Assembly (NCBI GenBank): GCA_003555335.1
Contig: PWHD01000016.1
Span: 1-6,525, forward strand
Direction: 5' to 3'
Origin: Mollicutes bacterium
Lineage (GTDB): Bacteria > Bacillota_I > Bacilli_A > Izemoplasmatales > Izemoplasmataceae
DNA: 6,525 bases
Part shown: piece after piece, positions 107-6,480 of the stretch
Layout: the number at the start of each line of letters is the position of its first letter
Numbering within the stretch: the first letter of the stretch is position 1
Translations under genes and position numbers: made by a program
Notes under the pieces: generated by a model
What the model saw: only the letters and a program-made list of their open reading frames with translations
Told to the model about the DNA's origin: nothing
Database searches by the model: none

Positions 107-155
107 ATTATAAATGACTTCGTTATTCCAAAACAGCGCACATCTGTCGCATTTC
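107..155 (-). promoter_or_regulatory. Leftward promoter with upstream regulator box (copy L)
   Basis: Read on the minus strand, positions 155-132 hold GAAAT followed by GCGACAGATGTGCGCTGTT. After exactly 19 nt comes a perfect TATAAT -10 (112-107). The box matches the one upstream of the pheromone precursor at 22 of 24 positions, and that copy also has a -10-like hexamer 19 nt away. No good -35 is present; the end of the box lies where a -35 would be, as expected for an activator-dependent promoter. The box has an imperfect dyad (ACA-NN-TGT core). Transcription would start near position 100 and run off the left edge of the window. That the neighbouring HTH regulator binds here is inferred. Confidence 0.6.
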
Positions 156-159
156 ATAA

Positions 160-195
160 AAAAAACAGGAAATTAGGCCTGATTTCCTGTTTTTT
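160..195 (-). terminator. Rho-independent terminator of the regulator gene
   Basis: A long hairpin pairs 160-173 with 182-195, with an 8-nt loop at 174-181. On the minus strand it ends in a run of eight T (165-158) just after the regulator stop codon at 214. The A-run on the other side would also allow function on the plus strand. Copy L of the regulator box begins only a few bases after the T-run. Confidence 0.85.
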
Positions 196-213: not shown

Positions 214-783
214 TCACATAATTTCTTTCTTCAGATATTTCATGATGAACATATGGTAGTTGATGTTGAATTTTTCTTCAATTAATTGAGTAAATCGCGA
301 TATTTTATCCATATTTCCTTCCAAATGCAGCACATTATAACATCGAAATAATGAACTCTCATATTCTTGAAAGTCTTCCAATCCAAAATGTGCTAAAGCT
401 TTATAGTAGTAGAAAAACTCAAATAAATAATATTGCTTATACTGAATGCCCTTGTCGATACCAATTTTAGCAAAGTGGATAACTTTTGGATAATCCTTAA
501 GAAGTCCATACCCTTTGGTTAATCTCATTAGAATCAACGAGATAATCATGTTATTTCCTCCACTCATAATATAATCGTCACTTTCAAACAGTTCACTCAA
601 ACGATCTAATAGTATTATCCTTTTTGGCATATCTAGGTAATTTATGAGGCTACTCATAATAAGAATCTCGATATCCGTATAATAACGATTATTCAGAATA
701 CTGGGATAGTTAATTAAATCAGAGTTCTTTTTAACAAGATCATACTCACTATTCTTGTCTAAATAAAAATCATTGAAAATCAA
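214..783 (-). CDS. C-terminal TPR-like receptor part of the broken regulator
   Basis: This is the part of the interrupted frame that could be read from the in-frame TTG at 783-781, giving 189 residues. No Shine-Dalgarno sequence precedes that TTG, and the open frame continues upstream to the TAG at 838, so independent translation is doubtful. The segment is helical, AT-rich in its codons and rich in Tyr, Phe, Ile and Lys. Its middle (KVIHFAKIGIDKG, then YYYKALAHFGLEDFQEYESS) resembles the paired helices of TPR-like repeats. In RRNPP regulators this domain dimerises and binds the imported peptide. No DNA-binding motif is present in this part alone. It is best treated as the second half of the 214-1134 gene, not as a separate gene. 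Confidence 0.45.
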   Translation of the reverse strand: MIFNDFYLDKNSEYDLVKKNSDLINYPSILNNRYYTDIEILIMSSLINYLDMPKRIILLDRLSELFESDDYIMSGGNNMIISLILMRLTKGYGLLKDYPKVIHFAKIGIDKGIQYKQYYLFEFFYYYKALAHFGLEDFQEYESSLFRCYNVLHLEGNMDKISRFTQLIEEKFNINYHMFIMKYLKKEIM

Positions 784-837
784 TGCATGTTTAAAGTAAA
801 GTTTTTTCTCTTGCTCAATGATGACAGTATTTTCAAT

Positions 838-1134
838 CTACTTTTTTAGAGTTCCAATTTTTGTCTTCTGCCTGTTTACCACTGCATTGTAAAAGTCATT
901 AATTTTTTTACTTTGAATGTTTTTCTCTTCCTCAAACTGGCTCAAGAGTTTTTTTGCTGGTATGCCAAGGCGAGCCGCGAAATGGTCAAGCTTCTCGTAG
1001 GGAATCTCACTTTCACCGCGCCGATATCGCTGATACTGTCGAATTGAAACAATACCATACACAAATTCTTCTTGAGAAAGCTTGCGGCCTCTCCTTACTT
1101 TTTCAAGAAAATTACTCAATTCCATGGAATTCAT
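838..1134 (-). CDS. HTH (XRE/Cro-C1) DNA-binding part of the regulator, 98 aa
   Basis: The helix-turn-helix spans residues 6-62: LSQEEF at 19-24 is the first HTH helix, SIRQYQRYRRGES at 30-42 covers the recognition helix, and IPYEKLDHFAARLGI at 44-58 closes the domain. A charged linker (QFEEEKNIQSKK) follows. The start at ATG 1134 is preceded by GGTGAT (1143-1138), which matches the extended anti-Shine-Dalgarno region; Met4 (1125) is a less supported alternative. Translation ends at TAG 840-838, immediately before the receptor part in the same frame. If made alone, this product would be an HTH protein without its peptide-sensing and dimerisation domain, so it may act constitutively or not at all. 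It is divergent from the pheromone gene, with 136 nt between them. Confidence 0.75.
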   Translation of the reverse strand: MNSMELSNFLEKVRRGRKLSQEEFVYGIVSIRQYQRYRRGESEIPYEKLDHFAARLGIPAKKLLSQFEEEKNIQSKKINDFYNAVVNRQKTKIGTLKK

Positions 1135-1186: not shown

Positions 1187-1240
1187 GAAATACGACAAAT
1201 GTGCGCTGTTCAAGGCTGGATTAGTAGCGTATGCTATAGG
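1187..1240 (+). promoter_or_regulatory. Pheromone precursor promoter with regulator box (copy P)
   Basis: Positions 1187-1210 read GAAAT followed by ACGACAAATGTGCGCTGTT. TATGCT (1230-1235) lies 19 nt after the box, the same spacing as TATAAT in copy L. An alternative -10 is the extended form TGcTATAGG (1232-1240); this one aligns better with the TGAGTT that follows the -10 in copy L. No -35 consensus is present, so activator dependence is likely. The start codon of the precursor is 60 nt downstream of the box. Which -10 is used cannot be decided from sequence. Confidence 0.6.
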
Positions 1241-1270: not shown

Positions 1271-1462
1271 ATGAAAAAAATTTTTTGTTTAACAATTACC
1301 TTAGCTTTGTTAACTGGTATTAGTGCATCAAATTTGTTTGGTAGTATTTATGAACCCCTTAGTTTTGACGATGACGAGCTTCCCGAATATGTCTCGCTCG
1401 GCGACCTCGATAACTTCTTCTTGTTCGACGATGACGAGCTTCCCGAATATGTCTCGCTATAG
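1271..1462 (+). CDS. Secreted peptide-pheromone precursor with two identical peptide copies, 63 aa
   Basis: The protein opens with a signal peptide: basic MKK, a hydrophobic core (about residues 4-16) and a likely signal peptidase site after ISA (A19). A short linker follows, then FDDDELPEYVSL at residues 32-43, spacer GDLDNFFL (44-51), and the same 12 residues again at 52-63, ending the protein. GGAGG (1258-1262) is 8 nt from the ATG, an excellent ribosome site. The gene is divergent from an RRNPP-like regulator and preceded by its putative box. In that family a secreted pro-peptide is processed, re-imported by an oligopeptide permease and bound by the regulator; the mature peptide is normally C-terminal, as the second copy is here. 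The acidic repeat would give two identical signal peptides per precursor. I do not recognise this peptide. Function is inferred from architecture and position. Confidence 0.75.
   Translation: MKKIFCLTITLALLTGISASNLFGSIYEPLSFDDDELPEYVSLGDLDNFFLFDDDELPEYVSL
1364..1458 (+). repeat. Tandem near-perfect 35-nt repeat encoding the peptide
   Basis: Positions 1364-1398 and 1424-1458 are identical except for 1366/1426 (TTT versus TTC, both Phe), with a 60-nt period. Synonymous positions are otherwise unchanged, so the duplication is recent or kept uniform by gene conversion. The copies are noticeably richer in G+C than the signal-peptide codons just upstream. Confidence 0.95.
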
Positions 1463-1514: not shown

Positions 1515-1793
1515 ATGAGAAAACAAGAATTCGCAATCGAATTAGAAGGTGTGATCGGTACGATCCATACCTATACCAGAAACCCGTTCATGATGGGCTA
1601 TACGAAAGAATTGAAAAAAGCGGTCAAACAAAATGATGTGGACACCGTCAAGATCATCCTGGACAAGGTGATCGGTTGGTACAATGAAGAACTTGAGAAA
1701 ATCAAGAGCGATGAGTATGTCTTCAACAAGAACATGCACGAGAAGGCTTACGGAATCCTGACCGAATACCGCCAGACCATTCAGTCTTCCTAA
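1515..1793 (+). CDS. Small helical protein of unknown function, 92 aa
   Basis: I do not recognise this family. The start is placed at ATG 1515 because AAGGA (1501-1505) lies 9 nt upstream; an in-frame ATG at 1506 touches the ribosome site and is unlikely. The protein is predominantly helical and soluble, with no signal peptide or membrane segment. It opens MRKQEFAIELEGVIGTIHTY, has a charged helix near the middle (TKELKKAVKQNDVDTVKIIL) and then WYNEELEKIKSDEY. The 52-nt gap after the pheromone precursor contains no terminator, so the two are probably co-transcribed. That makes it a candidate member or target of the signalling circuit. Its base composition resembles the right-hand genes rather than the regulator, so it may instead be a resident gene next to which the cassette landed. 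Confidence 0.7.
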   Translation: MRKQEFAIELEGVIGTIHTYTRNPFMMGYTKELKKAVKQNDVDTVKIILDKVIGWYNEELEKIKSDEYVFNKNMHEKAYGILTEYRQTIQSS

Positions 1794-2825: not shown

Positions 2826-2851
2826 AAAAAAAGACCGGTCTTGAGCCGGTC
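2826..2851 (-). terminator. Rho-independent terminator of the membrane-protein pair
   Basis: GACCGG (2833-2838) pairs with CCGGTC (2846-2851) around a 7-nt loop, followed on the minus strand by seven T (2832-2826). The stem overlaps the TGA stop codon (2852-2850) of the second membrane protein. Confidence 0.88.
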
Positions 2852-3128
2852 ATAGGATGTTGCTGATGATATAGAGTATGTAGAGGGTGATGGGAATCAT
2901 GAGCACCGACATCCTGAAATGAAAGACCATCGTGCGGCTGATTTCATTTTTCAGTTTGGGCAAGGCGATGACGAACACGATGTAAAGCAGGATGATTCCG
3001 GCGGATGAAAAATAGACTAAGGGGCCGAAAGGAATGCTGTGATAGAGCATATTGAAGCCGACATTCCAAAGAATGACAGCGAAAATCGCGATGAGACTGC
3101 CTATGATGTAGGGCAATGGTTTCAACAT
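2850..3128 (-). CDS. Small three-helix membrane protein B, 92 aa
   Basis: I do not recognise the family. Three hydrophobic segments are visible at about residues 7-30, 37-56 and 73-91, separated by a basic loop (LPKLKNEISRT). It resembles the upstream 93-residue protein along its length: MKP-like opening with PYI near residue 8, IVFVIALP versus VIVIVLP before the loop, and FHFRMSVLMIP versus KHYRLSLVMIP at the start of helix three. The pair is therefore a tandem duplication. AAGGAGG lies 5 nt before ATG 3128. The gap to the upstream gene is 30 nt without a terminator, so they form one operon. No catalytic residues are apparent; a role in the membrane as a homo- or hetero-oligomer is a guess. 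Confidence 0.8.
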   Translation of the reverse strand: MLKPLPYIIGSLIAIFAVILWNVGFNMLYHSIPFGPLVYFSSAGIILLYIVFVIALPKLKNEISRTMVFHFRMSVLMIPITLYILYIISNIL

Positions 3129-3158: not shown

Positions 3159-3440
3159 TTACTCTGTCAAGGCGAGTACAATCTGTGTCACCAGGGCGCC
3201 GAGCGGTATCATGACAAGAGAAAGGCGATAATGCTTGATCATTGCTTCTGACATGCTTGAAGAACGTCTGGGCAGAACAATGACGATCACCAGATAAATG
3301 GCTGGAACGAGGATTCCCAGCAAAAGCGGCACGAGGCCGAACAGGTTGCCGGCGACGATAAATAACAGACCGAAAGCCACAAGCAAGAACGTCAGGCCAC
3401 CGATGAGAAATGCGAGGATGTAGGGCATGAAGGGTTTCAT
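3159..3440 (-). CDS. Small three-helix membrane protein A, 93 aa
   Basis: First gene of a two-gene operon with the similar 92-residue protein. Hydrophobic segments lie at about residues 7-31, 34-56 and 73-91. The loop between helices two and three is basic and polar (LPRRSSSMSEAMIKHYR), and by the positive-inside rule probably faces the cytoplasm. The protein is almost all Leu, Val, Ile, Gly and Phe elsewhere. GGGAGG lies 6 nt upstream of ATG 3440. I do not recognise the family and see no binding or catalytic motif. The shared HxRxSxxMIP stretch at the start of helix three is the best conserved feature between the two copies. Confidence 0.8.
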   Translation of the reverse strand: MKPFMPYILAFLIGGLTFLLVAFGLLFIVAGNLFGLVPLLLGILVPAIYLVIVIVLPRRSSSMSEAMIKHYRLSLVMIPLGALVTQIVLALTE

Positions 3441-3524: not shown

Positions 3525-4667
3525 TCACTTGAAGACGCCGAGGCGAGTGGCGATACGGATATAGGTGTCGACGCCTTTCATCAGCACCGTCTCGTCGAAA
3601 TTGAACTGGCCGCTGTGCAGGGGATGGATGAAGCCACCCGGGATGTTGCGGCTTCCGAGCATGATGAACATGCCGGGGACGGCCTGCTGATAATAGGAGA
3701 AATCCTCAGCGAGCATGAGCGGTTTCAATAAAGTGTATTCATCGGGGGCGAAGGTTCCAGTCATGGCTGTGAACAGGTCATGGTCATTCTCGACGGGCGG
3801 GTGGAGGTCGGTGATGGTGTTTTCGATGGTGACATTGAACGCGGTCTCGATGCCCTTGTCGATTTCGCGCATCCTTTTTTTCAGGTGTGAGAATACCGCG
3901 AAATCAAACGCACGGATGGATCCGGTGAGCGTTGCCTTGTTGGCGATAATGTTTCTGCCCTCACCGACTTTGAGCGTCCCGACATTGATACTGGTGGCGG
4001 TCAGCGGGTCGATGCTTCTGCTGACAATCGTATGATACTGTGAGACGAGTTGTGCGGCGGCCAGAACCGTATCGTGACCAAGGTGCGGTTGTGTGGAATG
4101 GGCGTTCATTCCGGTGATTACCATATCGAAATCGCCGTCCTGGGCGGTAAGGATACCGTCAGCGAGACCGAGCTTGCCCTCTTCCAAGTCCGGATCGAGA
4201 TGAAGGGCGAATATCGCTTCGATGTCCAGGGATCTGAAAAGATCGGTCTTGATAATCTCGCGGGCGCCGCCGTAGGTTTCTTCGGCGGGTTCGAAAATGA
4301 AGGCCACCTGTTTGTTCAAGTCGTCATTGTCCGCTAAGTATTTCGCAAAACCGAGCAACATCGCCATATGGCCGTCGTGGCCACAGGCGTGCATCCTGCC
4401 TTCGTTTTTGGATACGAAGTCCAGACCGGTCTGTTCCTGGATTTCAAGGGCGTCCATATCCGCACGAAACGCGACGGTGCGGGTGGATGCGCCTTTTTTC
4501 AGGGCGATCAGACCCGTTTCGGCGACGATGGTCGTCTCATAACCCATCTCGTGGAGACGGGCTTTTAGATAGGCGTGTGTTCTTGGAAGATCGAAACCGA
4601 TCTCCGGTATCTCGTGCAGGTCGCGTCTGAAGGTTTTGATTGCGTCGAAAAAAGTCGTTGGGGTCAT
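3525..4667 (-). CDS. dapL: M20D amidohydrolase, probable N-acetyldiaminopimelate deacetylase, 380 aa
   Basis: A full-length M20 metallopeptidase-type amidohydrolase. Motifs in order: RRDLHEIPEIGFD (14-26), RADMDALEIQEQTG (68-81), HACGHDGH (93-100, probable metal ligands C95 and H97), EPAEE (126-130, catalytic and ligand Glu), H156 in FALHLDP, the dimerisation domain at about 178-290 with HSTQPHLGHD (190-199), and AEDFSYY with HPLHSGQFNFDE (348-359, ligand H351). The family removes acyl groups from amino acids and includes N-acetyl-DAP deacetylase (YkuR in Bacillus), aminoacylases and hippurate hydrolase. Sequence alone does not choose, but a lysine riboswitch directly upstream points to lysine/DAP synthesis, where it would free LL-diaminopimelate and acetate. 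The start is ATG 4667, with AGAGG (4680-4676) 8 nt upstream; GTG 4676 overlaps that site. Family confidence is high, the specific role moderate. Confidence 0.85.
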   Translation of the reverse strand: MTPTTFFDAIKTFRRDLHEIPEIGFDLPRTHAYLKARLHEMGYETTIVAETGLIALKKGASTRTVAFRADMDALEIQEQTGLDFVSKNEGRMHACGHDGHMAMLLGFAKYLADNDDLNKQVAFIFEPAEETYGGAREIIKTDLFRSLDIEAIFALHLDPDLEEGKLGLADGILTAQDGDFDMVITGMNAHSTQPHLGHDTVLAAAQLVSQYHTIVSRSIDPLTATSINVGTLKVGEGRNIIANKATLTGSIRAFDFAVFSHLKKRMREIDKGIETAFNVTIENTITDLHPPVENDHDLFTAMTGTFAPDEYTLLKPLMLAEDFSYYQQAVPGMFIMLGSRNIPGGFIHPLHSGQFNFDETVLMKGVDTYIRIATRLGVFK

Positions 4668-4691
4668 CTGTAACACCTCTTATGGAATATG

Positions 4692-4744: not shown

Positions 4745-4888
4745 ACTTTATAAAAGCACATTCCCATCAGTCCGGGCGACCGAAGGGAACAGTTCTGCGT
4801 TTGTTCAACGCAGCACCAGCGATGTGCTTCGGCGTCGGTCCCTTTCCCTTTCGGTACTCTTGACCGGACGCAGCCTCTTTTATAAAGT
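4745..4888 (-). promoter_or_regulatory. Lysine riboswitch (L box) aptamer
   Basis: Helix P1 is a perfect 12-bp pairing of 4888-4877 with 4756-4745. Inside it, on the minus strand, come AGAGGCTGCGTC, the loop-E-like CAAGAGTA, AAGGGAAAGGGACC, GACGCCGAAGC, GCTGG, a GCGTTGAACAAACGC helix (P4) and a TTCCC/GGGAA helix (P5) enclosing GGACTG. GCGTC and GACGC form P2. These match the order and conserved bases of the L box known from Bacillus lysC. When lysine binds, P1 is stabilised, the downstream terminator forms and expression of the amidohydrolase falls. Confidence 0.94.
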
Positions 4889-6243: not shown

Positions 6244-6480
6244 TTACTGTTCCAGAAGTTTCTTTTTGAGTTCCTTTTTGGTCGCGACTCGGCCTTGGAC
6301 GATGACCTCGCCGTCGACGGTCACCGCCGGTGTCTGCATGATGCCCATTTCACCGATTTCCGTGACATCCTGGATTTTCTTGATCTCCGCTTCGAGTCCG
6401 AGTTCTTCCACCGCTTTTCGAACGTGTTTTTCTGTCAGTTCGCATTTCTTGCATCCGGGTCCGAGAATTCTTATAACCAT
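6244..6480 (-). CDS. Small CxxC thioredoxin-fold protein (redox-active disulfide family), 78 aa
   Basis: The product matches the short thioredoxin-fold family known from archaeal MTH895 and many anaerobes. Strand one (MVIRILG) leads into GCKKC, giving redox cysteines C10 and C13. A helix (EKHVRKAVEELG), a short strand, then QTPAVTVDG with the conserved cis-proline at P51, and a final helix (TKKELKKKLLE) complete the fold. At 78 residues it is normal for this family and shorter than classical thioredoxin. It probably exchanges disulfides in the cytoplasm; its partner is unknown. AAGGAGG lies 6 nt before ATG 6480. It is monocistronic: a TATAAT lies upstream and a terminator downstream. Confidence 0.9.
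   Translation of the reverse strand: MVIRILGPGCKKCELTEKHVRKAVEELGLEAEIKKIQDVTEIGEMGIMQTPAVTVDGEVIVQGRVATKKELKKKLLEQ

Follow-up and report, generated by a model that had tools for sequence, protein, structure and literature searches.

A likely RRNPP-type peptide quorum-sensing module with repeated pheromone copies and a cyclic di-GMP phosphodiesterase output in Izemoplasmatales

We describe a locus on contig PWHD01000016.1 (assembly GCA_003555335.1) of an uncultured Mollicutes bacterium from the Izemoplasmatales, a relative of wall-less bacteria; the complete contig of 6,525 bases was analysed and is called the window below. The locus holds a short precursor gene with two identical peptide copies, a divergently encoded receptor gene and a third gene for a small helical protein (Table 1), and is likely to be an RRNPP-type peptide quorum-sensing module that has a cyclic di-GMP (c-di-GMP) phosphodiesterase as its output. 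By computation, the RRNPP assignment is strongly supported. The sequences themselves show the gene order, the receptor family, the conservation of the peptide, the operator and the target domains of relatives.

Results

Precursor and peptide repeat

An earlier sequence-only reading had proposed a 63-residue secreted precursor ending in FDDDELPEYVSL, with a second identical 12-residue copy 20 residues earlier and GDLDNFFL in between, a strong ribosome site and a divergent helix-turn-helix (HTH) gene, together fitting an RRNPP signalling pair. The open reading frame (ORF) and its translation agree with both peptide statements, GGAGG is present at 1258-1262 (8 nt 5' of the ATG), and the HTH gene was found, but with an in-frame stop. 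The pairing itself gains support from the predicted receptor fold of a relative and from the divergent precursors described below. By eye the leader resembles a Sec signal peptide, and the repeats are strongly acidic. At the DNA level the two copies agree in 34/35 nt (1364-1398 against 1424-1458), and the longest exact repeat of the window (32 nt, against a maximum of 17 in 200 Markov sequences of matched dinucleotide make-up) is far outside chance expectation.

The same reading had suggested looking for small ORFs beside related regulators. Among 23 genome loci, 20 have at least 200 bp upstream of the receptor (L006, L014 and L016 have less than 100 bp), and in all 20 the translations show a divergent precursor with the same peptide family, with a consensus of roughly [DG]F[DE]Dx3PE[YF]V (VE replaces PE in L021). 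A repeat lost while the rest is conserved, which would have spoken against the proposal, is not seen; it is the leader that varies and the peptide that is conserved, with 1 to 9 copies per precursor in the 23-locus set and at least 11 in a sister clade. Examples are L010 (LDFDDCGEPEFVH, seven copies), L018 (DFDDRDEPEFINI, nine copies) and the cut array of L071 (DFDDDDLPELINI, at least 11 copies). The peptide sequence varies from locus to locus and is conserved inside each array.

Taking the repeat as the putative mature peptide, 24 of 36 precursors (the window's among them) carry several copies and 11 carry one, while L017 is cut (as are the precursors of L005, L015 and L071). The single-copy precursors, of about 41-55 aa, terminate near the same peptide boundary. 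A further 45 receptor rows yielded 13 precursors with the motif, 13 short secreted-looking ORFs without it and 19 with neither in the screen. With the window precursor as sole query, a protein search returned no match except itself, and tblastn against plasmids gave three weak and unrelated matches; 16 precursors used as database queries matched 16 proteins, the scoring being limited to the 7993 candidates with most words in common.

In 23 arrays the copies differ at 43% of synonymous and 2.4% of non-synonymous sites (pN/pS 0.055; since copies were picked by P-[ED]-[YFHLW]-[VI], part of each 13-codon unit is fixed, which biases this value), so the copies are of long standing or turn over slowly, and it is their peptide sequence that is conserved. 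The window's own two copies (pS 0.245, pN 0.130, the latter due to differing flanking residues) are too recent, and too small a sample, to contribute to this estimate. Among the 16 proteins matched by the precursor queries, several share the leader of a known locus; their fewer copies (two in P0098 against nine in L018, two in P0101 against seven in L010, two in P0105 against four in L002) suggest either copy-number variation or assembly collapse. Array lengths may be collapsed in these short-read assemblies, and the window's two copies may likewise stem from a longer array.

Receptor

The HTH part of the window's receptor gives weak phmmer matches to PrgX, Rgg-type regulators and ComR (best E 0.065), and its frame remains open to position 214 beyond the TAG, which is codon 99. 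The whole frame, with X at the stop, matches 88 proteins at E<=0.01 (its own 189-aa fragment included). Sequence similarity to known receptors is weak, the best PDB profile match being ComR (E 2.9e-4). For the intact relative P0004 a confident AF2 model was obtained (pLDDT 91), with 45 Foldseek matches at E<=0.001, led by ComR, PlcR, PrgX and Rgg; this model of the intact relative shows the N-terminal HTH and C-terminal tetratricopeptide repeat (TPR)-like superhelix of RRNPPA receptors.

Judged by these homologies, the window's regulator belongs to an Izemoplasmatales receptor family, with relatives in 44/90 genomes of the order, which is assigned to Mollicutes. Its named relatives are metagenome-assembled genomes (MAGs) labelled Candidatus Izemoplasmatales, Tenericutes, Mollicutes, Bacilli or Bacillota, plus one Liberiplasma. 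Candidatus Izemoplasma is described, in the available text of PMC8397711, as wall-less and with a cultured member. No match at E<=0.01 was found among phage or plasmid records, and of 47 pattern stretches in viral contigs none codes for a relative, so a mobile-element origin was set aside.

Because of the in-frame stop, the window's receptor copy may be dead or mis-sequenced. It might be argued that the module in this organism is a decayed remnant with a broken receptor and leftover copies, all the more as the close relative L020 has an in-frame TAA after receptor-profile position 233 and further stops were flagged in L005 (within the last codons) and in distant G021 and G028 copies. We regard this as rather unlikely in view of the intact boxes, promoter phasing, precursor and third gene, of the near identity of the two DNA copies and of a possible base error in this single contig. 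The receptor of L020 (L020:5001-5918), a second one of this family with an in-frame stop, lies in a genome with an intact 7-copy precursor, where signal-blind producers are possible.

Peptide and receptor appear to vary together. In the window's clade peptide divergence tracks the C-terminal domain beyond the HTH (partial Mantel r 0.54, p 0.0004, n=16), and more weakly so in all 30 loci (r 0.25, p 0.002, with the L013 peptide corrected); loci with receptors of at most 270 residues, L020 and L023 among them, were dropped. This bears on the notion that the repeats form a secreted acidic structural, metal-binding or antimicrobial peptide merely regulated by the neighbouring receptor. To our knowledge such strong acidity is unusual among RRNPP pheromones, and by eye a few boxes outside the cassette precede apparent peptidase-containing ABC exporters and secreted proteins, as the notion would have it. 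Nonetheless we find it very improbable, as the neighbour is an RRNPP-fold receptor, the peptide follows its ligand domain in the window's clade, and the short single-copy members share about the same peptide end.

Operators and promoters

In the related loci, the box upstream of the precursors reads TACGACATATCCGCGCTGTT in one clade, GTATGACATATCCGCCGT in another and GGGTCATATATGAACTT at distant loci; in the window the boxes on the two receptor sides are 92% complementary. The TACGACATATCCGCGCTGTT box (19 bases, at most 3 mismatches) has 52 sites in 21/23 genomes, against 2 for the reversed control, and the GTATGACATATCCGCCGT box (at most 2 mismatches) 23 sites in 7/14 genomes, against 0; since the patterns were taken from upstream sites, independent finds are limited to the downstream and extra sites. 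Boxes facing outwards on both receptor sides are present in 13/23 and 7/14 genomes, respectively (by listed places). Compared with the palindromic operators of RRNPPA systems, the predicted box is conserved and its palindrome is imperfect in the window's clade. The inverted repeat between the receptor gene and the second box is likely to be the receptor's terminator.

The best -10 match falls at a spacing of 36-37 nt in 31/44 intergenic regions (mean 8.4 and maximum 20 in 500 shuffles), a count that is not a clean probability because the sequences are related (with L077 and L095 as at least one nearly identical pair); the 44 are those of 67 intergenic regions that have a box pattern. By eye these promoters have no good -35 hexamer, and the -35 region is overlapped by the box. 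Since this is a place where a repressor would act as well, the pair might instead consist of a repressing receptor, with the box as its blocking site, and a peptide that relieves repression. The weak -35 hexamer and the spacing phased to the -10 are as expected for an activator, so that we consider a repressor unlikely. As a separate observation, boxes outside the cassette in L128 and L151 precede genes resembling, by eye, peptidase-containing ABC exporters.

Table 1. Features of the module in the window (coordinates on the complete contig).
Feature	Position	Strand	Description	Basis
Second operator box	132..155	-	Predicted; reads left off the contig; GACA (from 148) 36 nt before TATAAT 112-107	Complementarity; same layout in relatives
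Inverted repeat	160..195	-	Between receptor gene and second box; 18-nt arms, 94% complementary	T run by eye
Receptor, C-terminal part	214..837	-	Past the in-frame stop	Homologues of whole frame; fold of relative P0004
Receptor, N-terminal HTH part	838..1134	-	Ends at TAG 838-840	HTH_19 3.4e-5, below Pfam cut-off
Operator box 5' of precursor	1187..1210	+	Predicted; GACA 1194 and -10 TATGCT 1230-1235, 36 nt apart	Conserved in related intergenic regions
Putative pheromone precursor	1271..1462	+	Signal-peptide-like leader and two peptide copies	ORF, 63 aa
Peptide copy 1	1364..1399	+	FDDDELPEYVSL	ORF translation and repeat analysis
Peptide copy 2	1424..1459	+	FDDDELPEYVSL; abuts stop codon	ORF translation and repeat analysis
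Third gene	1515..1793	+	92-aa predicted four-helix protein; SpbK N-terminal domain homologue without TIR	PADLOC spbK 1.5e-18

Outward target

In the window's clade the gene past the second box encodes a GGDEF-EAL or EAL protein in 7/7 loci, and in a larger set (A5) the same holds for 13/15 clade members (13/24 overall), the two others (by deduction L008 and L009) being truncated at contig ends. In G013 and G023 the target is on a separate contig, linked to the locus by the box and by a terminal receptor fragment. G023 is the closest relative (89% identity between the two third proteins) and has an EAL gene past the box; on this basis an EAL gene is predicted to the left of position 1 of the window. 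The E-x-L-x-R, N, E, DDFG, K, EG-x-E and QG residues, which have a role in the enzyme, are invariant in 20/20 full sequences. In the sister clade the target is an HD-GYP protein (HD_5) in 6/7 loci, L070 being cut. Two unrelated types of phosphodiesterase thus occupy one position at the same outward operator, suggesting that the output conserved across the two clades is c-di-GMP. The 18 genomes examined hold 5 to 22 GGDEF matches each.

Third gene

The third gene has an alternative in-frame ATG at 1506. Its product matches the sequence of SpbK in the PDB (profile match 1.3e-15) and is modelled by AF2 as four helices (pLDDT 96). The PADLOC spbK profile is matched by 32/32 aligned third-gene proteins (a set, A2, assembled from third genes adjoining receptors and biased in that respect), next to three weaker families (best 2.9e-4). 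The window protein spans only positions 37-123 of the 308 of the profile, so a TIR NADase domain is not part of its 92 aa. Pfam and NCBIfam gave scattered weak matches only (best E 1.4e-4 and 0.0099), and Foldseek returned nothing at E<=0.001 for the model, small helical bundles being weak queries; the link to SpbK is one of sequence similarity. PHROG matches of the third proteins (best 6.2e-4; head-tail adaptor at 0.0012 at best, in 9/32 members) were judged to be chance.

Within the class the gene occurs at 44 places in 36/395 genomes, and a receptor relative adjoins it at 31 of these (22 in a set of 30 loci, one of them by a 16-residue fragment, then six more and three more). Among the other places, 9 are no more than 402 nt from a contig end and 3 are without a receptor (L189, L192, L193). 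Beside the receptor the gene was not found in the HD-GYP clade, nor in L003 and L008, where 5 kb upstream was covered. At the one remaining place of the 44, the SpbK N-terminal-like domain forms part of a 375-aa protein (L185:1508-2636), with a restriction-specificity-like gene adjacent (by eye).

According to the available text of PMC12847820 and PMC11984713, the four-helix N-terminal domain of SpbK binds the phage portal YonE, docking on the portal clip domain; ICEBs1 holds spbK together with rapI-phrI, as stated in the accessible part of PMC8880864. The literature searched gave no paper combining SpbK and RRNPP. A speculative, and in our estimation quite improbable, extension is that the third protein keeps portal binding and that free portals titrate it off the receptor, giving a phage-aware quorum switch that lowers c-di-GMP, from which SpbK would have borrowed its sensor domain.

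Discussion

For export, processing, import, binding, the sign of regulation, the role of the third protein and the identity of the target in this organism we infer the following. The leader would export the precursor, cleavage would release two identical copies of an acidic peptide (some 12-13 residues long, or a C-terminal part), and an oligopeptide permease would re-import them to bind the divergently encoded receptor inside the cell. The receptor may then act at the two outward-facing operators overlapping weak -35 regions and stimulate transcription in both directions: of precursor and third gene on one side, as a positive feedback, and of the phosphodiesterase on the other, so that crowding would lower c-di-GMP. 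Copy number would tune the signal yield, and the third protein probably modulates the receptor. An activator-type receptor with positive feedback and c-di-GMP degradation would explain the receptor fold, the operator phase, the weak -35 regions and the targets.

Several observations weigh against this scheme. In the window itself the receptor is interrupted and the target gene lies beyond the contig end. Known receptors are matched with moderate structural overlap (query TM 0.39-0.59 among the rows listed), the box patterns derive from upstream sites, and a first Mantel test over 30 loci, with one peptide mis-assigned, gave a partial r of 0.15 (p 0.06). The 19 of 45 further receptor rows without a precursor include L062 at 345 bits, and distant receptors adjoin ABC transporters, a MACPF-domain protein and others rather than c-di-GMP enzymes. 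Oligopeptide-binding proteins (PF00496) were found in 14/18 genomes and thus not in all (these are MAGs of unstated completeness). Finally, the proposed peptides exceed the 5-10 residues given for RRNPPA pheromones in the available text of PMC11343458.

Like PlcR-PapR and ComR-ComS, the module combines an HTH and TPR-like receptor fold, an adjacent small peptide gene and a palindrome-like promoter operator. It differs in the weak sequence similarity of its receptor, the multi-copy acidic peptide, the divergent precursor, the c-di-GMP phosphodiesterase target and the gene resembling the SpbK N-terminal domain. The sequence-only reading had regarded a precursor with two signals as unlike known ones; this does not hold, as RRNPPA propeptides with several identical copies are on record for AimR, NprR, PlcR and Rap (up to six copies in the accessible part of PMC9765709, up to eight in that of PMC11343458). 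The present system, with several identical copies per precursor (presumably exported), is a variant of this RRNPPA kind, distinguished from Rap-Phr, NprR, AimR and PlcR by up to at least 11 copies and strong selection on each.

In DSF-RpfG quorum sensing a cell-cell signal likewise lowers c-di-GMP via an HD-GYP enzyme, there by a fatty-acid signal and a two-component phosphorelay, whereas the proposed module would use a peptide and transcription. The third protein is homologous over nearly its whole length to the N-terminal domain of SpbK from Bacillus subtilis ICEBs1; unlike SpbK it has no TIR NADase domain and is encoded within a pheromone module. The available text of a large RRNPP survey (PMC10075063) names no Mollicutes, Tenericutes or Izemoplasma. 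Among the titles and abstract openings listed, with subscription literature mostly outside, none describes the system, whether on RRNPP with propeptide repeats, c-di-GMP or Mollicutes, on Izemoplasma or Izimaplasma with quorum sensing or cyclic di-GMP, or on tandem-copy pheromone precursors.

Elsewhere on the contig, a lysine riboswitch (4746-4887, minus strand; Rfam, 66.9 bits) lies immediately 5' of an M20 amidohydrolase gene (3525-4676, minus strand). Two neighbouring genes on the minus strand (2850-3128 and 3159-3440) encode short hydrophobic proteins (92 and 93 aa) resembling paralogues by eye, and a small ArsE-type thioredoxin (6244-6480, minus strand) is found at the right end.

If true, the proposed module would bring peptide quorum sensing to free-living relatives of the mycoplasmas. 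Its arrays, from 1 to at least 11 copies and each copy apparently under selection, would offer natural material on the effects of pheromone copy number, and the linked SpbK-type domain would tie quorum sensing to the fold of an anti-phage sensor.
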